Source of the DNA: Struthio camelus
Lineage: Eukaryota > Chordata > Aves > Struthioniformes > Struthionidae
DNA: 64,000 bases
Reading direction: 5' to 3'
Assembly (NCBI RefSeq): GCF_040807025.1
Contig: NC_090956.1
Span: 4,824,517-4,888,516 of the forward strand
Position numbers and translations under genes: made by a program. Every line of letters begins with the position of its first letter. Position 1 is the first letter of the stretch. The notes under the pieces were generated by a model, which saw nothing but the letters and a program-made list of their open reading frames with translations, made no database searches and was not told where the DNA came from. Positions 986 to 62,252 of this stretch are shown here, piece after piece.

Positions 986-1808
986 CTTGCCTGGTGGAGA
1001 CGTTGCGGTCGTTGCCGGCGCGGAGCACGACCTGGGGGCAGCTCTGCTCGAGGGCGAAGAGCTCGTCCTTGCCCACCTTGGCGCTCTTGCCCGCCTTGAG
1101 GGTGCCGCTGGGCCCCGAGGGGGCGAGGTAGCGGCCCTCCCCGTCGCGGAAGGCCACCTTGCCGCAGCGGAACTCGAGGGTGAAGGCGGTGCCGGGCTCG
1201 GCGGCGGCGACCAGGCGGCCGTCGCGGCGCAGCAGGCGGTGGTCGCAGCTCTGCAGGCTGTAGCGCTGCTCCACGAAGAGCAGCGTGATGAGCGCGTCCA
1301 CGCCCCAGGGCACGTCGCGGTCCACGGCCAGCTCGTCGCGGCGGGGGCCCAGGTGCGCGTAGCGCTTGCGGGCCAGGCTGTAGAGGTTGGCCTGCGGGTG
1401 CATGGCCAGGTGGACGCTCCACTTCTCGGCGGCCGAGACGGCGGGGGCGAAGCAGGAGAGGCGGTCCTCGGTGCCGCCGAAGAAGCGGCGGTGCGGCTCC
1501 GACTGCAGCGACCAGCGCCCGTCGCCGTGCGCCACCACGAGGAAGCGGCAGTCGGGGCCCGGCTCCTCGCTGTCGCAGCTCACCCGGCCGTCCTTGTCGG
1601 CCGCCAGGTAGCGGCCCAGGTGGCTCTTGAGCAGCACGGCGCTGGAGTCCTCCCCGTCCTGCTCCAGCGTCCAGATCTGCTTCTTCTTCATGCTGGCGGC
1701 CGAGGCGTTCACCTTGAAGCCGAAGGCCTCCGCCGTCAGGTACTTGTTGCTGCAGTTGATGAGCCCGAACTGGATCTGCACCGGCTCCGCGGTGCCGTTG
1801 GCCGTCAT
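986..1808 (-). CDS. FSCN1: Fascin-1, coding exon 1 (partial gene)
   Basis: Fascin cross-links actin filaments into tight parallel bundles in filopodia and other protrusions. The exon encodes 274 codons plus one base, from ATG at 1808 to a phase-1 donor after ...NVSTRQ. It starts MTANGTAE and contains [70 protein letters not shown] and [15 protein letters not shown], all diagnostic of fascin-1. It covers beta-trefoil domains 1 and 2 and the start of 3, of four in the roughly 493-residue protein. Ser39, the PKC site that controls actin binding, is present just before the KKKQ motif. The start has a good context (caccATGa) and matches the family N-terminus. Later exons lie off the left edge. Gene order FSCN1-ACTB-FBXL18 matches human chromosome 7p22, which supports FSCN1 rather than FSCN2 or FSCN3. 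GC content is very high, unlike ACTB and FBXL18. Confidence 0.97.
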
Positions 1809-32540: not shown

Positions 32541-36892
<4,352 letters not shown>

Positions 36893-43494: not shown

Positions 43495-46400
43495 GTGAGG
43501 CCCGGCCGCGGGGCGGCGGCGGCCTCGGCGGGCCGTTAGCGGGGGCTGCGCGCGGGCTCGTCGCCCTCCTCGGGCTTCCGCTGAGGGCGGCGGGGGCAGC
43601 GCGGCCCCGCTCGGGGGTGGCGGGGCCGTGGGGCGGCTGGGCTGGGAGCCGGTGGCCGCTCTCTGGCGGGGCTGGGCGGCGCGGCCCGAAATAACCCTCC
43701 CGCCCTCGGCTGGGATCCCTCTCTTGGCCTTCCGAAAGGGTTGGGACGCTGGGTCAAATCACCCTTTTTGGGGGGGTGGCGTTGCGTTAGCGTCGATCTG
43801 AGCTTTATTAAAGACAGGGTGAAAGCAGCAGCAGCCGTCGCCAGCGTCGCTCCCACCGCCGTGGCCTGGGCGAGGCGGCATCGCCCGCAGCCGGGCCCGG
43901 TGGCGGCGATGTCCCCGGGCACGCCAGCGAGTGCTGTGTCGCTCGCTCGCCAGGCCTGGGCCGTGGGGCCGCGGTGGCGGCGAGCCCCGCGCTCCCAAGG
44001 GTGCCTGCCGCCGCACCCGCCAAGCCTCAAGCGGAGCGCCGAGGGGACATAACTGTGAGTCTACGCCGTTTTGAGTGGTTAAGGCGCAAACGTGCGGCAG
44101 AAGACCTGTGGATGCTCTGAAGCTGGACTGCAGTGCTGTTATTTTATTATATATGTGGATGTATACGTGTAACCTTTCGAAAGGCTAAAGGTTATCTCAA
44201 CAGATTGCACTCAGAGGAAAGGTGGAGGGAGAATGATGTGTGACATTGTGAAAGAAATGGGGGAAGTTACTTTCCCAATCGCAAAATAAGCAGCAAAAGT
44301 GGATTGAACGTAAAGAGTTTTTTTTCTCATTCTAAAGTGGTCCACAGCAAAAGAGTGAATGAAAATACTGTGGCTTTGTGCATAGTTTTGTACTACTCAG
44401 TATTGTTTTCTAAGGGAAAGTTTTTGGTTTCTCCATGCGGACAGAAGTACTTTGTGATACAAGTGGTTCTACTTCCGTTTTGCTGCACTTCATAAATCGT
44501 TCTTAGTCTTAAGGTATCTGTTTTCTCACGAGCTTTGAAGTTTCTGAGCTAGTAGCTTTTCTTTTCTCTTTTCTTTTTTTTTTCTTTTTTTTTTTTGCAG
44601 GAGATCGTAAGTGGGGAGTGCGAGGAAGAAAGTAACGGTGTCAACTTGATGGATTTTTCCGATGAGATCCTTTTGCACATCCTAAGCTACGTCCCTTGCA
44701 CAGACCTTGTCCTGAACGTCAGGAGAACCTGCAGGAAACTTGCAACGCTCTGCCTTGACAAGAGTCTAACCCATACAGTCTTACTTCAGAAAGACTACAA
44801 GGTGGGGAGAGTAGCTTGCTTCTTCTGTTAGCTCTGAAGACAAATCTGACTTCTGACAAAGTTCCAAGGAATAAGCTTCTGTGTGTCTGCATAAATATGC
44901 TGCAGTTGAACTGTGAAGGCAAATGAACAATAAAACTGTTTTACAAAAGCATTTGTTTTCCAGAATGCTTTGTTAGACGAGCTCTCTGTTCCCTTAGTTA
45001 GATAAAACGCCGTCAGTCAAAACTGTCGTCTTTTAGTTTCTGGAAGCTAAAATGAAAGTAAATGTGACTTTACTCAACCACAGTCAGAGGCAGCTATAAT
45101 TGGAAAGTTAACACTTTCTCAAAACGTTTTTTTTCCCCATATTGTACAAAAAATCTGCACAACCAGAAAAGTTTGTGCATGTAGCTGTCAGGCGTGCAGT
45201 CAGCTAAGCCAGAAAATGTGTATCTGTTGTAACAAAAATAAAACTAGGGATGAAGGGTAGTAAGTTTTTTGCTGGGACTTGGTGATACAGTCCTCAAAGG
45301 AGAGCCTCTTTGCTTCATTTCCAAACAAGGAAATTGGATGAAGGAGAATGGAAACACTCTTCTTTCAATATATATTTCCATAGATAGCTGTTTCTATCTG
45401 TCTGCTGAAATAGCTTTGCCATTAGAAAATGGAGGTTGTCCTCCATGCCACTGGAGTGGCGTGCTGAACAGATCCAGCCTCACGGTCGGTATTGCAGAAC
45501 TGCACAGACTGAGGAGGTAAAGGAAGTATAATCTTAAGAGTCCAAATCATGGCAAATACTATGCCAACTATCAGCTCTATAATAATTCTTAGACTGTGCT
45601 AGTGTCCTGAGACATTTGGATGAGCCACGTAATCTCAATGCTAACCACTGTTATCCCAGTCTTCAGATAGGAAACTGAGTCGCTAGCCGCTCTTACCATA
45701 TATCTCATTGAATCTGGTTTTGTTTAAGTACAGGTAAACAAAGACAAAGTGAAGCAGCTGATGAGGGATATTGGAAAAGAGATTTACCAGCTGAACATGG
45801 CTGGGTGCTACTGGCTGCCCAGCTCCTCTATTGACCATATCACACGGTGCAAGAACCTGGTAAAACTGAACTTGTCTGGGTGCCACCTCACCTCTCTCCA
45901 CCTCTCAAAGACGCTGTCCACGCTCCAGCACCTGCGCTCCCTTGCGATAGACGTCAATCCGGGTTTCGATGCCGGTCAACTAAGCAGCGAGTGTAAAGCC
46001 ACTCTTAGCCGTGTCTTGGAACTGAAGCAAACCCTTTACACTCCATCGTATGGCGTTGTTCCCTGCTGCACTAGCCTTGAGAAACTGCTGCTTTATTTTG
46101 AGATCCTTGATCGCTCACGGGAAGGTTTTATGCTTTCTGGGCAACTAATGGTAGGTGAGAGCAATGTCCCCCATTACCAGAACCTTCGTGTCTTCTATGC
46201 TAGGCTGGCTCCGGGCTATGTTAATCAGGAGGTGGTGAGGCTGTACTTGGCTGTGCTGAGTGATCGAACACCTGAGAATCTTCATGCCTTCCTCATTTCT
46301 GCCCCTGGTAGTTTTGCAGAGACAGGAGCCACTAAAAACCTTCTGGACTCCATGGCTCGAAACGTACGTCTGGATGCTTTGCAATTGCCCAAAGCCTGGA

Positions 46401-49400
46401 TTAATGGCTCTGGCCTCCTGCAACACTTGAAGTTCAACAACCCTTTCTACTTCAGCTTTAGCCGGTGCACCTTATCTGGTGGTCAGTTGATCCAGAGGGT
46501 TATGAACGGTGGCAAGGATCTTAAAAGCCTGACCAGTTTGAATCTCAGTGGCTGTATTCACTGTCTGGCTCCGGAATCCTTGCTTCGAAAAGCAGAAGAT
46601 GACATTGACAGTAGCATTCTGGAAAGTCTGGTAGTGTCCTGCTGTAACCTGAGACACCTCAACCTCTCTGCAGCTCACCATCACAGCTCAAAAAACATAG
46701 GGAATCATTTGTGCCAGCTTCTGGCCAGACTAAAGCACCTACTCTCGTTAGCGCTACCAGTCTGCTCCATCACGGATGTTGCTGCAAACGTGGAAAAGCC
46801 TCCCATGCAGTCTAATGTGATGCCCCAAACATTAGGAAAGAAAGTCCGGATAGGGGTACAGACGTATTCAAGTCAGAAGCCACAGTCTTCAGTATTCTGG
46901 GCTTTGATGGGAAGCCTTCCACTTTTGGAAAACTTGGAAATAATTGGGTCCAGTTTTTCCTCTGCCATGCCCCGCAACGAGCCAGCGATTCGGAACTCGT
47001 TGCCTCCTTGTGTCCGGGCCCAAAGCGTGGGGGATTCGGAGGTAGCTGCCATTGGCCAGTTGACTTATTTGCAGAGCCTCACCTTAGCACAGCTGCCAAA
47101 TATCCTTACTGGCTCTGGGCTTATTAGCATTGGATTGCAGTGCCAGCATTTGCGGACTCTTTCGTTGGCCAACCTGGGCATGATGGGGAACATGGTCTAC
47201 ATGTCTGCTCTCACGGACATGCTGAAACGCTGCAAGTGTTTGAGAGATCTCAGGTGAGGGGTTGTTGCTGAACATTGCCCTTTTGTTTGTGGATTTCTGG
47301 AAATCTAGTATGCGATTGGTTATGGCTAGCGTAACAATATAGCAAGTGTTTGTGTCTGGTGAAAGGTAGCTGCAACGGCTTGAAAACTGAATGTTTTTCT
47401 TCCGGAATTATGGAGAAGGGGAATGAATCTCATGCTGTCCTCAAGGGCTCAGGCCCTTTAACCGCTATTGTAAGAGTATAAAGTCTCTATGCTGCAGCTG
47501 TCTTCCTTTCAGCTAAGGAGGAGTGGATGCAATTTGTTTGTGAGCTAACAGCCTGCCAGGGCGGTGTCAAACGCTGTATGCCTTTTCTGACTTTTTGGCT
47601 TTTTATATGCTTAAATCTCTGGAAAACTTCCAAGGAGGAAGACTCTCCTAAGATATCTGGTTAATGTAGAGATCTTCTCAAGTTTCCCCCTGAGATATTT
47701 TTCTACCTTTGGTTTGTATTGAAGTTTTGCCTGTTTTTTGTGTTTCTTTTTCTCTTCTTGATAATATGTTGAAAACATTCCAAATCTAGAGTTCTTCCTG
47801 TTGGTGTTTCTTGCTTGGTAGGACCTAAATGTTTTGCTTCTTCAAATGTTATTACTTTGGAAAGGTGCCCTGCTGCCACCCTCAGTTCACAAAACAAGTG
47901 TAAAACACTCAGCAACAGTAAAAGCAAGGCCAAGCTCTCAGGGAATACTGGTGTGATTGCCAAGACAGTTACAGTGTGACAAAAAGTTACTGCTCATCAG
48001 CTGAGGCTGGTGTTTGTGTTCATCTTCCTAATCCATTGCCATAGTGAAGGGAAACAGGGTGGCTAAAACTTCAGGGGGGGTTTTCCTTTCACACCACTTC
48101 CCCTTTGTAGCAGGCAAGGAGCATGTTGGTCTCCCTCTCTCCTAGAAGGGATGGCAGCTGTTGGAGATGGAATTGCTTTTGATGGCTTGAGTCACGTGCA
48201 TATATCTTTACCCTTCAAGACGTTAAACAACCGTGGGAGTACGGAGATCGGGGAAACGGGTTTTGATGTGCGCTGCTGCATCGCTCAGTTTAAGCCCTGT
48301 AGTTTCCAGAGATTTTGAAGTGGAGGCCAAACGTGAGGCAGCGTAGAGGACGAGCAAGGGTGTCTTCTCGCAGTAACAGCTACGCGTTGCGGTGTAAGAT
48401 GTCTGTCTGTCTGTCTGTCTTTTTGAGTAAAGTCTGGGAAGGTTCTGCGTAGGTTTAACATGTTTTTAATGCTTGGTACTTCCTCCTGATAATGCAGTTT
48501 CCTTTCCATTTAACTAGTTCTCTGCTGCTTCTACCCTTTTGTCCCCACCCCATTAAGGATTTTTCTCTAGGCTTAGAAATTAGTTGTAGATGATATTCCA
48601 AAGCAACATTGTCATCTAGCGGGTGAAAGGCAGTACTGCAAATGTCTTGCCACTTCCACAGAGATTGACCTAGAAACCTCCTGTGAGAAGGCAGGAGCTT
48701 CTGTGCTTTTTGATCTGAACTTATTATGGACCGGTAACACTGTAGAAAAATTGGAGAGGCTCCCCATTTCTCTAATGTTCATTTTAAGCTATTACCCAAT
48801 GTGCTAGTGGGCTGTTATGTTCTTCTGATATTGTTACCTGACCAGCAGTCTCAGGCTGGGACTTTAAGCCACGCTTTATCAGTTAACGAGATTAAGGTGC
48901 TGAGATACCCCCACATACTGCAAAAGCCTGCACAGAGATTATCCAGCTCAGGTTGGGACTGACAGCATGTTATCACCTAGTGGATTAACCATCTTGGGGC
49001 TCTTGGCCTTGCTGACCCAGTGACTGGGATTCCCAGGTGCTCCGAGGTCCTGTAGTAAATCTGCATTAAGCAGACATGCTCTCTTGGTGAGACCGGCCCC
49101 TGAGCGGGTTCTGCTCTTGCAGACTGGTTTGTGTGAGGGAGCAATCCAGTGAGGCTGTTAGTTGAAACATGGACCTCTCGTTGGCCACGTGTGGCTTCAC
49201 TGAGTCATTTTGCGCTCTTCTGGGCCACGATGTAAGACTGAGCACAGCAATAATAGCAAATCCTGACTGTTCTCTGGGCCTGGTGTTTAAGATAAAGCTT
49301 GGACTGATGATGGTTCTTGCTGTGGGAGAGCAGTAGCTTTGATCCTTTTCCATCCTTTTTCCTGTGACCAGGGAGGGCTGGTTATGGTTGCTCTGGCTCA

Positions 49401-52400
49401 AAGGCATGAGTTCTGCATCACCCTGTGTGAGTCATGAATTTTTCATGCCTGCTTCTGTCTAGGTAGTACACCGAATATGACTGGTTTGATCGGCGTTTGG
49501 TGCACTGGAGCAGTAACTCCCCAGTTCCACAGCAGCTGCTCAGTGGATACTAGGTAGCAAAAGCTAGGCTATGCTTGTTCTAAGAGCAGGATGGACCTAC
49601 TGGTCATATCTAAGGCCCATCTCACCAATGTGCTATGGTGGAAAACTGGCAGAACCAGGATTTTGTGTGGGAATGCTCTGTGCGATCTGGAATTCTGCAG
49701 TTTAGATCTTTCTGCAGTAGCGTTACATTTGTGTCTCTGTCCTCCAGATTGCATAGCTCGAAGGTAGCTAGCAAGCAAGAGGCCTGAGCTTGCAAAGCCT
49801 TGTTTGTCCTGCCATACTCCCGACACATGCACGTAGAAGGGTATTGCATGTGTAAGTGAAACAGGTGGGAGAAACTGATTGCTCCGTTTACTAACTGGCC
49901 TTGAATGTTTTGTCTTTCCTCTGGTTTGAAAGCGCTTAGGCATGAATTGCCCATTGACTTATTTTTGTTTGTTCTTGCAGGCTAGAACAGCCGTACTTCA
50001 GTGCAGGCGCCCAATTCTTCCAAGCACTGAGTCATTGCTCTTCTCTCCAGCGGCTTTGCATCGTCTCCCGGAGTGGGACTCTGCAGTCTGACGCAGTGAT
50101 GTCATTCATGGCCAGCTGCCTTGAGGTCATCATGTGCCACATGTTTATGGGAGAATCTCTTACCGTGTGCAAAAATCTCCAGCAGTCTATTGTCCGGAGG
50201 TGAGTGCGGAAAGGGGTTGATGGGTGATTTCTGGAGCTGCTCAAGATTTATCTCCGTTTCCTTGCCCGCTAAGGTTTATATGGCTTGGAGCACTTGTTCC
50301 AAGAAGCTAATAGGTACTGTGTAACTGCTTGGCACATGAGCTAGCCTCTTATTTTAATAAGAGTCAATCAGTGAAATATTTGAAGGTGGTATATGAATTT
50401 CTGATTCCATTCCCACCCATGTTCTCTGCAGTTCTGTCAGGGCTGAGCTGAAGTTCTGGATGTACAGCTCCGTCATAAATCAAGTGGCAATTTTGTGTAA
50501 ACAAAACATCTGGCGACATTTTAAGTACTGAGAGGTTTGACCTTGAAGCTTTCCTCCTTTCCCACAAGTGACTAAGATAATTCTGTCTTCTAATCACTTG
50601 TAAATGTCACTTACTGATAATCCCCTGGCAGCGCAACTCAAAGCCTTTAAAGGGTTGTTGTGAAGGGTTTTTTCTTCAGGGCGGGGAGGGGGGAATGGTA
50701 CAAACTGCCTTTGCGTGTTTGGCAGTTCTTAAATGCATCTTGCCTGGCCCCTTGCAGTGTTCTGAAGCTCACATGGTGGGAAGCGCTTGTGTGTGAGCCG
50801 TGAACTGCATTTGAAAAGAGGGCTTTTAATTATGCTTGGCATTTTGAAATCTTTTAATAGTGGCAGTCATCTTACAAAATATTTCCCATGCAACAGACTC
50901 TTTTTTTTTTTTCCCCCCTATAAGGCATTTTCTCCGCCTTCAGTCTGTTTTCTTTGTCACCTACTGTTGCTTTCCCCTGTTAAGCTCTAATAAAAATTTC
51001 AAATCACATGGGCTCACATGGCATTATTACTGCATCCTAAAGGGTGCTCCTCCCCCCAGCCTTTCTCCAGCTTCAAACTGACTTATTAGACTTGGCTTGT
51101 TTCCTAGAATCAAATCCAGAAGAGCCTACGACTATATTAGCTACCTATCAAACTGCATATGAGGTTGGTTGTTGCTGCCTCTTAGAAGGCCTGTGTTCTT
51201 TTGGGATGGTGATTGTTGGACACATCCAAGTAAATTCCTTGTGATGTGTCAAGGGCTTCTTGGGTTTTTTTTTTTTTCTTTTTTTACAGGGCTTCATGTC
51301 TGTAAGAGCATTCTTTGGTCTGATACAGTTGTGCTTTGAGGATCCTCAGAAAGAACCAAGAATCCACAATTCACGTTTTTTATTCTGCCCTCCTGTCTAA
51401 GATGCTATTGCAGAACTGGCCAAAATTTTAATGTCCTTTTACTGGAAAGAAATATATTTTTCTGCAGTCTTCTTTTCCTCCTTTTCTGTGTCGCATATGG
51501 ATCCTCACTACATTCTGTACCTCTTAATAATTTAAACCCTGGGAACTTTCCAAAGAGCAGCTGATGCCTCATGGAAATGTTAAGAACTATTTTTATATTT
51601 AGCAACAATTCTGGCCGTCATATTATTTTTCTTCTTTTGTATTTTATTAATGGGGACATTTGTATGAAAACTATATATATATATATAGATAGAGCTAGAT
51701 ATATTTTAAGGGAGTATCTGCTCCCACTGCTAATTCTGCACCTGAAGTCATCATAATCCTCTATGACACAGTAATTGGTGGCTCTGGAAACGATTTTGAT
51801 GTCACGGAAGATTATGACTTCAGGAGGAGGATAAGCAGTGGGAGCAGATGCTCTCCTAAGCAACAAAGATCCTGTTCTCATGCAACTGTCTCTAGTAATA
51901 AAATGCAAGGAACGAAATACAGAAAATGATGTGTAAGCAAGGCCTGGAGTTTTCCATGAGCCATCGGCAAGCCTTTAACCATGTGACTTTTCCAGTGATC
52001 CCATTCTTGTCCTTGCCCAAATGCGCCTACAGATGGGGTCAGAAATTGACTTTCTCTTGGCTGCATTTTTATCTATTACTCCAAGGGCAAAGAGACATGC
52101 CATAAAATCTGTGAGTGCGTTTTCTTGCTAGCTAGCTCGTTGCTTAAACCTGTGGATGAGGGCTCGAGTTCACCCAGCACGGCTTCCTGTAAAAATGTGC
52201 TGCTAGCATGTCTTTAATCCAAGCCCTAAATTGTAAGAGCCTATTGGGCAGCAGGTTTGAAGTAAGATATCCTGTGCCAGAATGAAAGAGGGTGATTTAT
52301 CTTTTTTGATTTGGAATCTGTGCAGATGCTGAGTGAGTGTGTAGGGAAGACGTGAAGAGCAGGTGGGAAGGAGGAAGCGAGAGCGGGGATGGCAAAGCTG

Positions 52401-55400
52401 CAAGCCTTCCTTTGTTTGCTCCTCTTCCTTTGAGCTGGGGGAATCGATCCGTATTCCTCAGGTCCCATTAAGGATTAGACTTCCTGGTTCAGGGCTATGG
52501 AGATGACCTTTTTTAGGCTGAGAGCAGCCAAGGGATTGATGCTTTTGAACAGGGAGATGTGGCCTAAGTGATTTTCATGCCCTCTCTTTTTAGAGGGGAT
52601 TGGGAAGAATGGGAGTGAGGAGCTGGAAAGGCCTGGGGCTGAGCATGCACCAGTAGTTTGCTGCAGGCTGTAGAGCTGAGGGAGGCTTGAAAATGCAATC
52701 TAGTGCAGTACAGTGGGGTTTTTTGTTTGGGTTTTGGGTTTTTTTTGTTTGTTTGCTTTCGAATATTGATCCATAGGAGGGATCAGGTCACAGAAGAGAC
52801 TGGTTGGGGGAGAACAGACTAGTTACCTGTTAGGGTGCGTATACAAAGAGTAATGTTGGGAGCTCAGGTGTTAAATCTGCTATTTCACATTGATGACTTA
52901 AAGCCTGATCTGATTCTCAAACTGTTCTTGTCTGTAAAATAAGGATAGTGTTTATGTATTTGTTTTGCCTGCCTGCCAAGAGAGTTGCTCTCACATCTAT
53001 GACAGCTCTAAACTAGGCCCCATGTTGTCCATTTTTCTCGTAGACGTTTTCCTGGTTAAAGTTTGCTGCCGTTTGACAGGGATTAGTTTTCATATTTAAA
53101 TCATTAACGCCTCTGATTCCATTTTGCCTCTTTTGCAGTGAAACACAGTAAGCTGAGCAGAACTCATCTGGAGCTCTCATCAGCAAACAAGAGGCTTGCA
53201 AGGGCAAGGTCTCCTCTGAGCTTTACAGAAGACTGTTTCCCTGTGGGCAGATAAATCATTGCAGTGTTTTTCTTTCTTCTTTTTTTCTTCTGTGCGTATG
53301 GGAGGGGTAATCTCCCTTATGGTTCAGGGACATACTCTGTGCACGTAAGGAAAAAAGGTCCTAGTGGTTAGAGTGGGAGATGTGGCTTGAGTGATCCTTA
53401 TCCACTTCCCTGATCTTCCTCAGATTTCACATGTGACAGTGGTCTTGTCTCGCAGCTTCTCTGTAAAACAGTATTTCTTTCTTATCATATGGTGCTCAGC
53501 TGCCGTACTTCAGATAGAAGCTAACCTAATGAACACAATGTTTCCCCTTTTACGCTTGCACCCGAGCTTTGCCAAAATGCTTAGCTCCAGGCGTGTGTTG
53601 TCTTTGCTTAATAACTCTTCCGTTAAAACCACTGCAATGTTAACTCCAGAAACATGGTAAAACACTGCAGTCCAGGGTTACTGGACCCAAGGTTGTAGGT
53701 TCAAGTGTGACCGCAGTTCTCTTGTTGTGCAAGAGGCCTCCTTGAAATGGGAGGTTTGCTGCTTCCTTTGGGGCTGACCTGCTGTGCTGTGATTCTTTCT
53801 AAATGCCTGCAAAGGCCAGTGTATCCAAAGCCTGTCCTGCCGGCGTGGTCCAGGAGGATGTGGCTTGCCTTCCCAGAGGGCTTTCAAATTGTGATTTTGT
53901 GAGATAGTCAGTAGATGGAGCTGTGACCTATGGTAGGCGTCCCACTACTCCATGCTGTCCTGACGTATTGCTTGCTAAATAATCTTGTCTATACGCCTGT
54001 ATTTCTCTGCCCCAGAAATCTAGTGGGGAAAGGAATTTGGATGACTTCAGCGTAGCGCTGCTGCATGGCGTCGTTACTGGGCACTTCAGATTTGTAAGAC
54101 AAGTTGCTTTCCTCTTAAAGCTTACCGGCAGGAAACAGGCTGGCAGAGGGGATGGGGAATGCTTGGAAAATGTCCCCGTGGCCTCAAGGACAGTTTTTAT
54201 TTTCTGGTGGGTTTCTTTGAATTTTACTGGTTTTAGCTTAAGTGTTTAGGTAGCTCCTATCCTTGTAATAATTTCAAGGACTCTACAATACCAAACAATA
54301 CAGGCCTGTGAAAAGTCCTTGAAAAACACCTTGAAACAGATCAAGAAAGCAACAGTGGGGGGGAAAAAAAAATCTCTGAGAGAGAGTGGTGTCATTAGGG
54401 ATTCTTCATACATAGGGAGAAAGTGTCAAGGCGTAGAGCTGAGTTGTGATTTATAGAAATGCAATCCAAGTTAAGCCATGGTAGAAAGCGTGGTCAGGAA
54501 GCAAAAGCCTGTGGTGCAGCTGAAGCGTGTTTCGGGGAGGTGGGTAGGCAGCTTGGCTCAGCTACTCGCATCTCCTGAGAGCGCTGTTGTAATCTCCTGT
54601 GGCCCGACAGCTGTCGGGAGGTGGTGTAGAGGACCAGGGCTAGCTCGAGTCCTGGCACAGCATCCCCCAGGGGTTGTATGCAGGGTTGGAGCAGCAGCGT
54701 TTGGCGGTCCCGGCTCCGCTACCTGCTGCAGGGCGAGTCAAGGTCTCTGCTGTTGGTACCCTAGCCACGCTGGCTCTGTCCCCAGCAAATGGCTCTGTAA
54801 CGTGACTGTGCCCTGCTGTGCCCCACTACTCGGATAGCTCTGAGGGTTAACCAGTGCTCTCAAGTGCAGTGAATTTTTACTATTTTAGGATAACCTGCTT
54901 GTTCTGGGGATCCAGGACCTGGAGAAAGAGAGATGCTAACTTAGCCTTCCCATTGCTGCCTGGGGCAGGTGCGAGCGCTGCTTAGTTTGAAGTGACTTTC
55001 ACAGTAGGACTCCTGCCACTTTCCAGGAATAGCTGTTTCAAGCCGAATTAGATCTTGCTATTCAAACTTTTCTGGTGTTGTCTAAATTTTCCCCTGCTTG
55101 TTGTTGTCCTTTTTAACATTAAATTCTTGGCTGGGTCTTTCCTCTTCTTAAACTGCTGATGTCAATGGCCCTGGCAGGCGGCGACAGCCATGACATGGAA
55201 GGGCTGCAGGACCCTTCTGGGATTCAGGTGCAGAAGTGGGACTTGCAGGTGGGAGCCTGGGGCAGGAATGTGAGTGTCTGGGAAGTGCTGAGTGAGCCAG
55301 TCCCTCTTCTGTGTTAGGCACAGAACTAAAATGCCACAACTGAATTTTTGCTCACCTCAGAGCTAAGCTTTCTCCCCTCCCTTGTTGCTATTGCCTTGAA

Positions 55401-58400
55401 AGTCCCTTCAGTTTCTCTTTCTAGTAAGCTGATTTATTCTTCATGGCCTGATTCTCATTTTGGGCTTGGCCTCAGAAAAGCCCTTGTGGATGTTCCTCTC
55501 GACTTGTAGATCGGATGGGAGGAGGCTGTAGGGCAGTAAGTGAGTAGAAAATCTTCTTTGAATTCTGCGAAGTCCTCCGCTGTCCCTTCTGCGCTGCCCA
55601 CCTGACTGCCGCAGTTGTATTGACACTGCAAAAAGCTGGTAGTACCACCTAGGGCTTATTTGAGATTTTCAAGCTGTCTTTAGCTTCCTTTCATCACCTT
55701 CTCTTCCTTCTGACCTTGAAAAAGTACCTCGCAGTACACTGCTGTTTTTCCTGAATCCCAGAGCCAGCACGGTAGCTGCCAATCCCACTCCGCTAGCCTA
55801 AGCATGTTGTGGGCTCAGTCCCTGCGTCTGATTGCAGAAGACTTAATGTATCGCTAGGCTGGTGTAGTGAATCATTAGCATCCTGTTCCAGCTTTCATTG
55901 TCTGTTTCATTTCCTGCTCTTAGAAACCCCTGAATCATTCTGTCACAGGCTGAATAACAAACTGCATCCTTGTCAGCTTGCGTTACCCAAGAATTCGTTG
56001 GCGGGCTTGGTGAAGACTGACTTTGCTTGGGGTGTGGTCCTGACACCTTTGCTTCTACCAGGGATGTTGTTTAAGGGTGGGTTGGAATACTTTGCAAGCT
56101 AGCGCAACGTAGGGGACCATCCCCAATTTTGTATGTTGATATATCTTCTTTTGGGGGTACTAATATGTCTCCTTCTTGAATGCGTTCCTGTGGCTAACGC
56201 AAATGACGTGTTTTAAAGGCTAGGTCTTGTGTTTTGAGGAGAGTTCAGTCCCAAAACCCTCCTTAGAGAGTAGTTGGTTTGTACATGAAACAGGTTTCGA
56301 GCAGTGTCCTCCTCTCTCTCTTGGCTGAGAAATAATATTGGAATAGTACTGTCATGCTTTTCTCTTCATGAGGGTGTAAAAGGCTGAACGGAAGCATTAA
56401 CTGCAGCTTTAAAGCATTTCCATAGTAAAATAAATCTAATTGAACAGTTATTGCAGTAGCTTTTTAATTTGTGGAAGAGATTAGGAAATAACTTTCAGCT
56501 TGCTCTGGCAGAGCGCTCCCCTAGGACGTGTCCTGGGCACTCTGGCATCGCTTCTCGGGTTCTCGTTCCCTCCCTCTCTAATTGTCCGGTCATGTCTGAC
56601 TGATGCAGAGTTCGGCTGGCCAAATAACGCAAGAACCTCAAACTCTGGAAGCATGTTTGATATAAGCCTCAGCTCACGCAGGAGTAGTAGTGGAGCATCA
56701 TTCATCTCTTATAGAGAAAGACCACAGTCCAGAGAAATAATTTGCCTCCACTCAGGGGATGAGTTGACATGTGCTGGGAGACTTACCAGTACCGTGTGTG
56801 ACCGACTTCCAGAGAGTCCAGTCTATGCCCCTTTGTCTCAGGTTGGAGGCTGTAACGATAGGACTTTAGGTGAGGGGAAAATGACAGGCTTTGGTAGGAT
56901 GCCAGTTGGTGGGTATAGACATGGCAGGTGGAAGACACCATTGGAAGACAACACTTTAAGGAGGCAATACCTTGTTGTGATTCCTCAAATTGCTTTTACC
57001 TCACACAACTGCTTTCCTAAGGAACTTTTGAAGTCCATTTCTGAGATTAGAAGGTAAAGTGTGCTCAATGCTGATACTCTGTCAGGGTTGGAAATGAGAT
57101 TGGTATTAGGGAACAGGTCTGCTTTACAGTCACTGCGTGCAGGCTTTGGAGCCTTATTGAGAGGTGAGTGGCAGGGGTCCACCCTGCTCACAGATGAAGG
57201 TGCCTGAGGGGAATTCAACCCTCAGTTTCTTCGATGTGGCTAGCAGAAGCTCTGGCGAAGCTTCATTTTATGCTCTTGGCAGTCATTGCAAGCAAAGAGA
57301 GGTCTTGCAGTTCCCCAGTCCTGACTTCTGGGAATGACCAGTGGAATGAATCCTAAGTGCACGTCTGGCCTTCCTGAAGGGATGAGAAAAGCATGTGTAT
57401 GTACGTTGGGTCATGTCACTTGTCAGCTGCTCCAGCTTGTCCTGGCCCTTCTCCATTCCGCCATGCCATGCTTCAGGGATGGGAGTTTCCAGCCCTGGCT
57501 CAGGTACATTGGCTGAAGCTTACAAGGCAGATGCCACATTTGAACTTTGGAGATTTCCATCTTCCAGTGAAAACAAACTTATGCTGTGCTTGGCGGAGGA
57601 TTAACAGGGTTTTTATGCGTGTGGGTGAAAGAGCTGTGCTCAGGCTAAAATGAGAGTCAGACTGAATTCTCTTCTCTTGGGAAACTTGCTCCTCTCCAGA
57701 AGCAACTTGCCAGGTGACAGGGCTGTGCGTGAAGTCTGCATGAAGGAGAGAGGAGCTGTGCGACCACAGCAAAGATTAGAGGGTTATTGTGAAAGTGATG
57801 TGGACTGGAGTGCAAGCCTTCTCCAGACCCGCTGTGCTTTGTTCTGCCGAATCAAGCTCCTCGAGGTTTCCTTTCAAATTCTGTCTGGAGCCTCTTTCCC
57901 CATAAGATCATCTTGTTTGTTGAAGTTTAAAAATCTGGCCTTGATCCACTCCTGATACTCCGTATTTCCTCATTTTATCTGATGTGTACCTCTTTTATTG
58001 CGAGTGCTTAATTATACCACCTTGTGTGCCCTTATTCCTGCCTGCCAGTATTTGAAGTGGGATGTGCTGAAACCTCTGAATTTGGCATAGAGTTTTTTTT
58101 TTTCTCAGTTTTCTCTGGAGATCTCAATGGAAAATACATTCTTCAGTTCCAAATACTGCATTGTCCTTTCTTTATAACAAAGAGAAAGGTAAGTTTGAGC
58201 AGGGCCTAACAGAGTCAATCTGTCTTCTTCTGGGAGCTGTGGTGCAGACAGTTACACTGGAGCATAGTCCATCATTGCAGGCTGCCTGGTGAGACTTACC
58301 TGTAGTTTTGGGCTGCCTGGTGAGACTTACCTGTAGTTTTGGGCTGCCCTTTAGCTGCGTCAGCAGGTGGAGTTCTGGGGACTCGGTGGGCTCCTCTTTA

Positions 58401-61400
58401 AAGAAGTATGTCCGAAAACACACTCTGAGGGTGTTTGCCAGGAGATAACTACATTCTAGGGAGCAACTCTTTTTGTCTTGCTAAAATCAAGGAAATCTGG
58501 TTGAAGTGCAGCCCTGCTTTAGACTTTTTCCCCTGCTTTTTGACTTTGTCCCTGACCTACCTATTGGGTCTTGCCATGCTGGTTGGAAGTAACTGAGACC
58601 ATAGCGTTAGGCTATTTACCAAGCTGTTCACTTGAAAATAACCTTACTGTGTCCAGTCCACACCTGTTCGGGGATAATTCTGGAGGCAAATAACAAAGCA
58701 CCATTAACCCTTCCAGCCATGAGCAATGTGTTCAAGATCTAACTGTAGGATGAGGTTATACCTCAGCCGATGCCAGGATGAATCGGGGAAGCAGGGTGTG
58801 CTTTAATCTCTGTGTCCGTCTCCCAGCTCCAGGGATGACTCCAGCCAACTGCTGAAGTCAGACCCACTCTGCGTCGACATCCAAATGAAGACGCTTTCGG
58901 AGACTTCCTTGTAAAAGTTCCTGCTGGGTGGTTGTTGGTTTGGTGTTGCCTCTGCTGGGCTAGAGGCTATACTGGAAAATATCTGTGTGGAGGGGTATTT
59001 TCTTTTGTTATCCCAGTGGTTGGTTCTGATTAAAGGATCTGTTTTGAAGGGGCTGCTAGTCAGTTGCCTAGAAAACTTGCTTTCATTTAATTAATCGTGA
59101 TGAGTTTAGTCTGGAGGTTTTGTAGGAGAGAGCAAGCAAGCATATCCTTGGCTTCTTTCCCTTGGAGGAAGGCAGGGTTTCATGTCTGGAACTGCAGCTC
59201 TTTTGTCTCCCCAGGTCAACATCCGTCTCTGTCCTTCGGCTTTTTATTTTACAAGCCATGTGCTTGCAGAGGTAGATCCAGTTTGAAGTCCATCCAGGTG
59301 TGGAATGAGGAAAGAACCGTCAAGAAGATTACAGGAGCTATTCTGCAACTCATTAACTCAATCTCTTCCCCTTCTTGTTATCTCCTCCCCATGCCTGGGG
59401 CCTTTCGAACTAGTGCTCTAAGTGCTTCTCGCTTAATCTAGCCCACCTGGACAGGTGTATGAAGAAAGGAATTGCCTTCCGGGGAAAGGACTAAAGGAGC
59501 ATAGATTGCAGAGGGAGTCTGCTTTTGGGAACGGCTAATCCCAGTTTAACATTATGACAGCTGCTTGTTAAAATCAGGGTGTTTTTTAACAGGCAGTTAA
59601 GGGAGAGGCTTTGCACGCACTTTTAGCTGAGAATAATAGTGAGCCATGTGCATTTGATTTTTTTTTTCCTTAAATCATGCAAATTGTACATGGAAAGAAT
59701 TCTACGGCGTCAACTTGCTGGGGTATGGAATTTACAAGGTTTGCAGTCACATACAGCTTCCTGTTTGGGGGGGAGACAATTACAAAGCTTTCTTTTTGTT
59801 TTATTTTCTGTTTTATTATATATATATTTTTAAGATCAAGTTCAAATCTCTTACATAAATCCAGCCTTTTTGGAAGGTATACTTGCTCTGGTGGTTTTCC
59901 CCCCCTCCCCCAAGCTGTCTTGGTGGCAGATTGTCATGTAAACTTGTCTAGGTTCTTGTTTTTATAGATACATGTAAAAACTGCTTATAAGCTACAACTT
60001 TGTGTATGGTGAGAAAGCAGCATGCAGATCTAATTTAAGAGAGTCTATATACAAAGAAAGAAGCAGAGGCTTCTTTGCCTTGGGGATTTTATGGTCAGGA
60101 AGGCTGTATCCTACAAAGATGGCTGGTTTTTTTTCTACGCTGAACTTCAGTAAGCTTGGTCTATTAACATGATTTTCTCTGCAGGACTGTGGGGTTGGAT
60201 AAGAAACATGAAGAACCGAGGCAGAGGAGGGACTATCAAACAGACATTTGCTGTATTTTATGTAATTTCACTGCAGACTTTACCCACCTGCCTCCCAGAT
60301 CAGCGATTATTTGCTGGTTGGTTTCTTGTAGGCAGCACTGTGGAAGTAAGAACCTGTACGGCTCCTGCACAAGCCTCCCGATGAGCTCTAGGAAAGGTGT
60401 TCTTTTCTGCCAGACCTTAGGTATGAGGCATGAAGGGCAGGTCTGTGATGCGGAAAGGTGTAAAATTTCCCCAGGTAGTTCTGGTGCAGGAAATCCTTGT
60501 TCCTGTAGCTACTTAGGTCCAGGCAAATTAATTCAATCCACCAGGACTGAATAACTAAATTTGGTGTCGGTATCTGCCTGCTACATTTTTGGCACCTCTA
60601 TCGCAAATCGTTTGTGGATGAGAACACCTTTCCTGTCTCCTGGAGACATGCCAGTCTCTTGTGGCCTTTCCTTCAGCTGGCCCTATTGCCGGCACTGGTT
60701 ACTTGGGATTTTCATGCGTGTTTCCAGATCTCCAGCTATTCCCTCTCTATTTGGGAGAAAACTGGCTGTTTCAGTGCTAGGGATGAGCTGGGAATTTTCC
60801 AGACGCGCGTCTGTAAAGGAGAAGCTTGTTCAGCAGTGATCTCCTCTTCAGACCAGCACAAGTTGGTTCAGCCTCAGTGGACTGATGCTGCCAGTCTGGC
60901 GCTGCCTCCTTTGCAGCGATAGCGAACTGGCCCTCACCACACGGCCCAGAGGCAGTGTCTTGGTGGCATATTACTAATAGTCACAAATGTTTTGATCTTA
61001 AGGGCGTAACCCTTAAGCTATGGCATACGTTCCCTTCCCCCCAGCTTTAAAAGCTAGTGGGGGGAAGCTGACCTTTTCTTGTTATGGTACAGTGAGCAAT
61101 GCTCTTTCTCTCCCCCACGGTCCCTTACTCACCAGGTTGCTGTCTTGTAGAACTGATGGGGTTGTGGGCTTTTTTGTATGGTTCTTTTTACATTGTATAT
61201 ACGGCTTTAGCTTTTGCTGATCTCTTCCTCTGTTGTGTAACGATAACCTTGCTGCTCCTCTCTCCTATTGTCATATCAGGCCTCTCACTTGCAAGGTCTG
61301 GGATGCTCGGTGGGTGCTGGCAAGCAGACCCAGTGGTGTATTGTTGGCGAGGGGTGCTGGGAGGACAGGAGACAGATTTTTTTAAGAGGGGGCAAAAAGT

Positions 61401-62252
61401 CTGAGGCTGTGGCTTCAGAAGCTGGAACCCAGAATTCAAGTGATGAATGGGGATACTTGCATGCATTTCTGTTTAGAGCAGATCACATGCTGCCAAGACA
61501 GGTTTTCTGCAGCTCTTATTAAAAAGGAGGCTGCTGCGTGTGTGTATGTGAACACACTTAAATGCTTATCTGCAGATCTGAGCTTTCTAAACTTGCCTCT
61601 GCTCTAATTGCAGAATGTAGACTGTGCACGCTGAACATCTGAGCCCGAAGTGATAATCCCAGGTTCAGCCCTGGGGGAATGCCTGGCGCTGCTCTGGCCT
61701 GATTTTTAATGGCTCTGCAACTTGCTGCTGGTTTGCAGAAGGCTTAAATTGTTATCCCTCAGCACCTTGCCCAACTTGGGCAAAGCTCTTGGGATCTCTG
61801 GTCCTCTGAGAATACCCGTATGTTGTGATTTTGCTCCCTCCTCCTGCCTCGTGTCAGGCCTGAATTGGGCTTGTGTCAGCTCAAAAGACTCGCTGAAAAG
61901 TGGTGCAATCCCAGCCTGTGCTCTCTGCTCGCACACAGAGGAAAGAGGGGAGACCTTGACTTCCAGTTTCCCCTCCTGCCTCATCTGAACAACCCTGCTT
62001 TGCTCCCCTGCCATGCGAACTGTATCTATGCAAGCCCCTCTCTTGCACTGGAGAACTGATGTTTCTCCTTGGCTAATAATCTGTGTCTGATTTAGTTTCC
62101 AGGCAGAGCGCCCTGCGTTAAATGTCGTCATTTTCCCTCTGCTTCATGAGGACTTGACAGAGGTCATCAGAGATGTCCCTATGAGGCACTTGGATGAAAT
62201 TACCTTGTTTAAAAGCAGAGTGGCTGAGGAACCTCCCAACCTGTGGTGGTGA
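43477..62252 (+). CDS. FBXL18: F-box and leucine-rich repeat protein 18 (five coding exons)
   Basis: FBXL18 is the substrate receptor of an SCF (SKP1-CUL1-F-box) ubiquitin ligase; published substrates include FBXL7. Joined exons (43477-43494, 44601-44801, 45734-47253, 49981-50199, 62096-62252) give 704 residues and TGA. Residues about 21-67 are the F-box (LMDFSDEILLHILSYVP ... RRTCRKLATLCLDKSL). The rest is leucine-rich repeat, with motifs LVKLNLSGCHLTSLHLS, SLTSLNLSGCIHCL and LRHLNLSAAHHHSS, and the C-terminus DEITLFKSRVAEEPPNLWW matches the short human isoform. All joins are in frame: phases 0, 0, 2, 2. The start at 43,477 has context gccgccATGt and gives a six-residue exon 1 (MLRCGE), which parallels human MASSGE. 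The N-terminus before the F-box is diverged and shorter than human (from memory). The frame is open upstream to 43,114, so a longer N-terminus cannot be fully excluded. Confidence 0.95.
43495..44600 (+). other. FBXL18: FBXL18 intron 1
   Basis: 1.1 kb. The left half continues the CpG island and the right half is AT-rich, ending in a T-tract before the acceptor. A stretch near 44,240-44,310 ('ggaagttactttcccaatcg') is vaguely MIR-like. No gene. Confidence 0.8.
44601..44801 (+). CDS. FBXL18: FBXL18 coding exon 2 (F-box)
   Basis: 67 codons, EIVSGEC to LLQKDYK, phase 0 at both ends. Preceded by a long T-rich tract and TTTTTTGCAG; donor GTGGGG is non-optimal. Carries essentially the whole F-box that binds SKP1. 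Confidence 0.95.
44802..45733 (+). other. FBXL18: FBXL18 intron 2
   Basis: 0.93 kb, AT-rich. Near 45,640-45,690 the string 'gttatcccagtcttcagata ggaaactgag' follows the MIR core order and may be an old SINE. No gene. Confidence 0.75.
45734..47253 (+). CDS. FBXL18: FBXL18 coding exon 3 (main LRR exon)
   Basis: 1,520 bases, about 507 codons, from VNKDKVKQLMRDIG to KCLRDL plus two bases of Arg. Acceptor TTAAGTACAG has a poor pyrimidine tract; donor GTGAGG. Contains most leucine-rich repeats and stretches nearly identical to human, such as SSECKATLSRV, TPSYGVVPCCTSLEKLLLYF and FNNPFYFSFSRCTLSGG. Confidence 0.97.
47254..49980 (+). other. FBXL18: FBXL18 intron 3
   Basis: 2.7 kb of unique sequence with a short (GTCT)5 microsatellite at 48,401-48,420. 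No RNA gene or coding exon recognised. Confidence 0.75.
48401..48420. repeat. (GTCT)5 microsatellite
   Basis: Five perfect tandem GTCT units inside FBXL18 intron 3. Confidence 0.9.
49981..50199 (+). CDS. FBXL18: FBXL18 coding exon 4
   Basis: 219 bases: completes Arg, then LEQPYFSAGAQFFQALSHC ... NLQQSIVR plus two bases of Ser. Acceptor TTTGTTCTTGCAG, donor GTGAGT. Confidence 0.96.
51706..51859. repeat. Long imperfect inverted repeat (hairpin)
   Basis: Two arms of about 65-70 bases face each other around a loop of about 15 bases near 51,775-51,791. ATCTGCTCCCACTGCT (from 51,716) pairs exactly with AGCAGTGGGAGCAGAT (ending 51,849), and CCTGAAGTCAT (from 51,741) with ATGACTTCAGG (ending near 51,825). 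The outer ends TTAAGGGAG and CTCTCCTAA still match at most positions. By eye the arms share roughly three quarters of their bases. Candidates are a decayed MITE-type DNA transposon or an intronic hairpin RNA. I do not recognise the family. Confidence 0.8.
58281..58342. repeat. 31-bp perfect tandem duplication
   Basis: Two identical 31-base copies start GCTGCCTGGTGAGACTTACC, at 58,281 and 58,312, and a third partial GCTGCC follows. On the minus strand each copy contains CAGGTAAGT, a perfect U1 splice-donor consensus (58,294-58,302 and 58,325-58,333). Confidence 0.95.
62096..62252 (+). CDS. FBXL18: FBXL18 coding exon 5 (last) with stop
   Basis: 157 bases: completes Ser, then FQAERPALNVVIFPLLHEDL ... 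PPNLWW and TGA. The acceptor CTGATTTAG has a weak pyrimidine tract. The frame closes exactly with exon 4 and the peptide matches the human C-terminus. It lies 11.9 kb from exon 4. Confidence 0.95.

Follow-up and report, generated by a model that had tools for sequence, protein, structure and literature searches.

The window, the stretch of 64,000 nucleotides of Struthio camelus DNA analysed here (NC_090956.1, positions 4,824,517 to 4,888,516), contains coding sequence of FBXL18. A long reading frame of FBXL18 (45728-47257) matches the Pfam family PF19729 (2.2e-252), and the exon ending at 50199 continues the same profile at positions 509-583. It is followed by an intron of 11.9 kb (50200-62095), which opens with a GT donor at 50200 and whose AG acceptor precedes 62096. 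The terminal exon (62096-62252) has no Pfam or PDB match; the C-terminus that it encodes is recognised from that of human FBXL18. A sequence-only reading of this DNA had placed a hairpin within an intron of FBXL18. This is borne out, by the PF19729 exon upstream and by the splice sites that bound the intron, and the element is located about 1.35 kb into this last FBXL18 intron. The features are collected in Table 1.

The window was scanned for inverted repeats (11-base seed, minimum 30 nt), giving 33 pairs, of which the 25 longest were listed. The longest of the 33 is 51706-51759/51806-51859, in which two 54-nt arms, 81% complementary, are spaced 46 nt apart. The segment 51690-51875 is predicted to fold into a stable hairpin of 60 pairs (-84.5 kcal/mol, z -9.5), and none of 200 shuffled sequences folded equally well. 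The inverted repeat proposed at 51706..51859 is thus confirmed, and the perfect blocks of 16 and 11 bases that had been noted in its stem are both visible in the sequence. Its limits, however, were drawn too narrowly. These coordinates cover the middle third of the palindrome, and the element does not have 154 bases but about 429 nt, target site included.

Complementarity extends outwards, with gaps, through 51628-51671/51874-51917 (75%) and 51560-51577/51951-51968 (89%). The whole of 51550-51978 (429 nt) folds as one end-to-end hairpin of -171.8 kcal/mol (z -11.6), which was equalled by none of 100 shuffles. Taken alone, the outer extension has a score of 27. All of 300 shuffles score lower (mean 11.5, maximum 18), whereas among real pairs from the window the mean is 14.5 (sd 5.0) and 27 is a tail value that at least 10 of 300 exceed. 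The pairwise score is therefore indecisive by itself, and the extension is accepted as part of the element because it is homologous to the other copies described below. The family arm profile matches this copy, locus L001, at 51548-51786 (+) and 51992-51782 (-), corresponding to locus coordinates 1359-1597 (+) and 1803-1593 (-) plus 50189.

It had been suggested that the element inserted at a TA-rich tract. The tract is part of the left arm; the family consensus has AGGATCTTTGTTTC at this place, and the tract is therefore not flanking target sequence. The TA tract is thus ruled out as the insertion site; the conserved target is a TTAA at other coordinates.

Table 1 Exons of FBXL18 and parts of the palindromic element in its last intron, in window coordinates.
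Feature	Position	Strand	Basis
Coding exon of FBXL18 on the 5' side of the element, with a GT donor at its end (approximate start)	49976-50199	+	PF19729 LRR_FBXL18, 1.3e-39
Whole decayed palindromic MITE copy, both target-site tetranucleotides included	51550-51978		Arm-profile matches; end-to-end fold
Element proper, without target-site tetranucleotides	about 51554-51974
Left target site, CCAA at present, aligning with family TTAA	51550-51553		Sequence; arm-end alignments
Left arm (TIR), beginning AGAGCAGCTGATGCCTCATGG (inner edge approximate)	51554-51773	+	Arm profile; alignments
TA microsatellite tract within the left arm, in place of family sequence	51672-51687		Sequence; family consensus
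Inner left stem, as first seen	51706-51759	+	Fold; inverted-repeat scan
Central loop, resembling family TTGGTTGCAGTGGAAATGA, which orients the element (edges approximate)	51774-51791	+	Fold; arm consensuses
Right arm (TIR; inner edge approximate)	51792-51974	-	Arm profile; family alignment
Inner right stem, as first seen	51806-51859	-	Fold; inverted-repeat scan
Right target site TTAA, intact	51975-51978		Sequence; arm-end alignments
Last coding exon of FBXL18 (probable), on the 3' side of the element, up to the stop codon	62096-62252	+	AG acceptor; frame continues upstream exon

The hairpin had been read as a decayed transposon consisting of terminal inverted repeats (TIRs) only, a MITE, and this idea has held up. 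The window's own genome (1.45 Gb, 262 contigs) contains dispersed, diverged copies: there were at least 14 matches to a 186-base query, at least 23 to a 741-base query, and at least 69 when the best-preserved copy (C5:40.65 Mb) was used as the query. These counts are lower bounds in which one copy was often matched in both orientations. Once repeats, and places on contig C40 that double places on C41, had been removed, 39 distinct loci were left, and all were examined. An arm-profile match (E up to 0.01) was present at 38 of them, which together have 61 arms, and both arms were seen at 23 loci; the single locus with no match (L025) was excluded. The left arm of L081 is weak (E 0.0034) and is missing from the 60-row arm alignment, so that the pairwise comparisons below cover 22 copies and not 23. 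A 19-base core pattern, allowing up to two mismatches, had 57 genome hits, compared with 25 for the reversed control. These counts include the doubled C40/C41 places and support a family of tens of copies. An exact 18-mer of the element had no match in a scan of viral_contigs.

The arms of the FBXL18 copy adjoin each other and their divergence grows gradually outward, as in a purely local inverted duplication within the intron, of no mobile origin. The same palindrome with the same ends is nevertheless present at dozens of other loci, and these dispersed copies refute a local origin, for which we see practically no likelihood.

The matches on C40 (70.4 Mb) and C41 (89.9 Mb) are paired, and across some 18 Mb the offset between partners hardly varies (about 19.46-19.53 Mb). 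Ungapped comparison of four such locus pairs gave 2062/2064, 3085/3091, 3237/3239 and 2294/3110 identical bases, the last pair probably being thrown out of register by an indel. One C41 hit in the 19-base pattern search (1.96 Mb) has no C40 partner. Palaeognaths have Z and W chromosomes with a long recombining region, and C40 and C41 are possibly such a pair.

The structure of the parent element can be seen from the family. Copies were oriented by the central loop, close to TTGGTTGCAGTGGAAATGA, and 11 of the 60 arms were omitted because their centre was ambiguous. Consensus sequences built separately for the two arms, A from 23 and B from 26, are identical at 208 of 234 positions; of the 203 positions where both have a majority base, 191 are identical. 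The parent therefore consisted of two arms of about 220 nt around a short loop. A perfect palindrome with no loop was considered and rejected, as the centre holds an oriented loop. The element is thus short (about 420 nt) and non-coding, and has terminal inverted repeats, as seen in the two consensuses and in the end-to-end fold. Its dispersed copies share the same ends (38 of 39 loci, a lower bound), with a sharp edge at TTAA. It is firmly assigned as a MITE.

The sharpness of the edge is clear from the coverage, which rises from 12 to 32 arms between arm-model positions 141 and 161. Of the 24 arms extending to the edge, 13 have exactly TTAA as the tetranucleotide, and among the remaining 11 there are 7 that differ from it by one change. 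The base directly outside it is mixed in the profile alignment (3 A, 6 C, 6 G, 7 T). Profile column 148, four bases outside TTAA, has A in 13/13 arms, whereas in an ungapped reading of the 24 arms the same position is A in 12/24, and no base exceeds 12/24 at any of eight outside positions; the conservation of column 148 is therefore taken to be an effect of gapped alignment. Family termini consist of TTAA followed by AGAGCAGCTGATGCC, with the consensus AGAGC inside and arms starting AGAGCAGCTGATGCCTCATGG. The FBXL18 copy has CCAA as its left target site and TTAA as its right. The left CCAA is a decayed TTAA, and the TTAA conserved at arm ends suggests that this tetranucleotide was duplicated on insertion.

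TTAA is also targeted by piggyBac transposons, whose ends usually begin with CCC or CCY. Kolobok transposons have a TTAA target and RR termini, and T2-MITEs have TTAA and AGGRR, according to a study that also describes one Xenopus Kolobok with AGAGCAAG termini and TTAA sites (PMC6004289). The arm-end alignments of our family show the same TTAA target site. The consensus AGAGC fits RR and AG, although not AGGRR as written, and the right arm of the FBXL18 copy reads AGGCT. A dispersed palindrome with TTAA/AG ends carries the published marks of Kolobok and T2-MITE elements, and is therefore an ancient DNA transposon, non-autonomous and bearing long TIRs. From its ends the superfamily is probably Kolobok. 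Assignment to another TTAA-targeting superfamily, either piggyBac or one so far undescribed, seems rather unlikely: the shared target would fit piggyBac, but AGAGC is consistent with the Kolobok RR/AG rule (PMC6004289) and differs from the usual piggyBac start.

The copies also provide information on whether the hairpin has been maintained. In the inner arm, mean identity is 0.691 within a copy (22 copies) and 0.680 between copies (1725 cross pairs); in the outer arm it is 0.535 (17 copies) and 0.577 (1463 cross pairs). A generally maintained hairpin would make the arms of one copy more alike than arms of different copies. This is hardly so, and the arms have decayed nearly independently, therefore mostly neutrally. 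A simulation of decay with site-specific rates gave a small mean excess of +0.022 (s.e. 0.009, 22 copies) for the inner stem, and a deficit of -0.019 (s.e. 0.011, 17 copies) for the outer part. Identity of arms to the consensus is about 0.65-0.91. At the neutral rates of birds this points to an age of well over 100 million years, and the insertion is therefore predicted to be common to most or all birds.

The FBXL18 copy itself is better paired than most. By fold z it is the second most stable of 38 copies, at -11.1 (60 shuffles), the best being -15.3 and the median -3.1. Its inner identity is 0.81 compared with 0.71 simulated (p 0.008 uncorrected; none of the 39 tests gave a lower value, but significance is lost on correction), while its outer identity shows no excess (0.61, with 0.64 simulated). 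At all six inner-stem sites where both arms leave the consensus, they have the same derived base. Among the other 58 arms, three of these states recur, in 14 (position 334), 13 (position 375) and 6 (position 322), whereas those at positions 310, 311 and 323 are rare or absent (2, 0 and 2 arms). Both arms also share an inner deletion of 4 nt, which is present in five other family arms and is therefore not a private compensatory change. The shared changes are compatible with a private sub-lineage, with conversion between the arms or with weak constraint.

The same 4-nt deletion occurs in one arm only of L018 (C2:41.9 Mb), L026 (C21:13.07 Mb) and L008 (C4:16.7 Mb), hinting at arm-specific sub-lineages or arm-to-arm conversion.

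It could be supposed that the inner stem in FBXL18 stayed paired for a long time after the death of the transposon, through selection or through gene conversion between its arms, and that it now serves birds as a double-stranded or small-RNA hairpin derived from a fossil Kolobok-type MITE. The basis for such a reading is the set of changes at 310, 311 and 323, together with the rank of the stem, and we regard it as very improbable.

A further proposal would be exaptation of the family, in a cis-regulatory or structural role, with constraint on the inner 100 nt or so of each arm. The majority base has a share of 0.75-0.87 in arm columns 311-370, compared with 0.59-0.81 in most outer columns between 151 and 300 (ten-column means), and the arm carries ATTTGCAT and TGACATCA, which we take to be octamer-like and CRE-like motifs respectively. 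On the other hand, the copies were found through matches centred on the inner part, so ascertainment favours inner conservation, and exaptation appears quite improbable. Overall, the inner 100 nt or so (arm-model positions 271-370), where both of these motifs are located, are better conserved than the outer part, and ascertainment may explain this.

Another suggestion was that of a new small-RNA hairpin, in which the MITE has given rise to a microRNA or endo-siRNA gene, with Drosha or Dicer cutting FBXL18 pre-mRNA in the inner stem. The great stability of the inner hairpin and the six doubly changed sites described above would be in keeping with this, and there is a precedent in primate miR-548, which derives from palindromic MITEs, namely MADE1 (PMC1784062). 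The suggestion was not supported by Rfam. At gathering scores the whole window contains only a mir-3533 match, with no known microRNA family at the element or in the 20 of the 37 other matching loci that were searched. At E<=1 there are three sub-threshold matches at the hairpin, the best of which, MIR7533, reaches 39.7 bits where its gathering score is 230 (551-base search, E 1.7e-6); it was rejected, and is read as an effect of hairpin shape.

The form of the stem also counts against processing. Drosha prefers an unpaired base some 35 bp away from the loop of a pri-miRNA, but the 60-pair stem has no single-stranded base at that distance, and pairing continues to 429 nt. Long intronic hairpins can be ADAR substrates. 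With arms that decay about as fast as independent copies, and with the 4-nt deletion shared with five other family arms, there is in our view very little likelihood of a small-RNA gene here.

The mir-3533 match in the window (36203-36286, 109.4 bits, gathering score 104) is within a reading frame that we recognise as the coding sequence of beta-actin, and the mir-3533 family may be a misannotated actin exon.

On the basis of these observations, we conclude, with a probability of roughly 0.85, that the last FBXL18 intron contains a single old and decayed member of a low-copy palindromic MITE family, TTAA-targeting and most likely Kolobok-type, and that this copy most likely has no function and is decaying neutrally. 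The parent would have been a non-coding DNA transposon with two inverted arms of about 220 nt around a loop of about 18 nt, presumably mobilised in trans. A TTAA-targeting transposase, most likely of Kolobok type, would have moved it into what became the last intron of FBXL18. If transcribed in FBXL18 pre-mRNA, the copy would form a long imperfect hairpin, to be spliced out and degraded.

A striking hairpin is thereby placed in a known class of genomic fossil. The ancient TTAA-type palindromic MITE family now has defined ends, and its copies can be used as orthologous markers. They also allow the idea that long palindromes in introns stay paired to be tested in nature; pairing has been lost in many of them, a caution against taking single stable hairpins to be RNA genes.

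In the open PMC literature, no description of this MITE family was found (weak evidence of absence), nor anything on FBXL18 with an inverted repeat, and the core 16-mer as text gave 0 results. The family may have been catalogued before now. Among ancient vertebrate repeats, PMC5753468 gives UCON29 as Kolobok, and UCON29 resembles the FBXL18 element, by description only, as an ancient class II repeat. In a bird, a 114-bp Kolobok-type fragment has been annotated in the chicken MHC-B region (PMC9635633), and this too is compared with our family by description only. MADE1, the source of hsa-mir-548, is likewise a near-perfect palindromic MITE in transcribed DNA, transcription being presumed for the FBXL18 element. 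As described in PMC1784062, MADE1 is 80 bp long with 37-bp TIRs, and is abundant, with 7,850 annotated copies. The FBXL18 element is about 420 nt, decayed, and has TTAA rather than the TA of mariner; the present searches turned up no small RNA derived from it. Close parallels are also seen with the T2-MITE and Kolobok elements of Xenopus (PMC6004289), which share with it the TTAA target, AG-type termini, inverted repeats and the lack of coding sequence. The FBXL18 family differs from them in being nearly all arm, in the few and very old copies found, and in having AGAGC in place of AGGRR.
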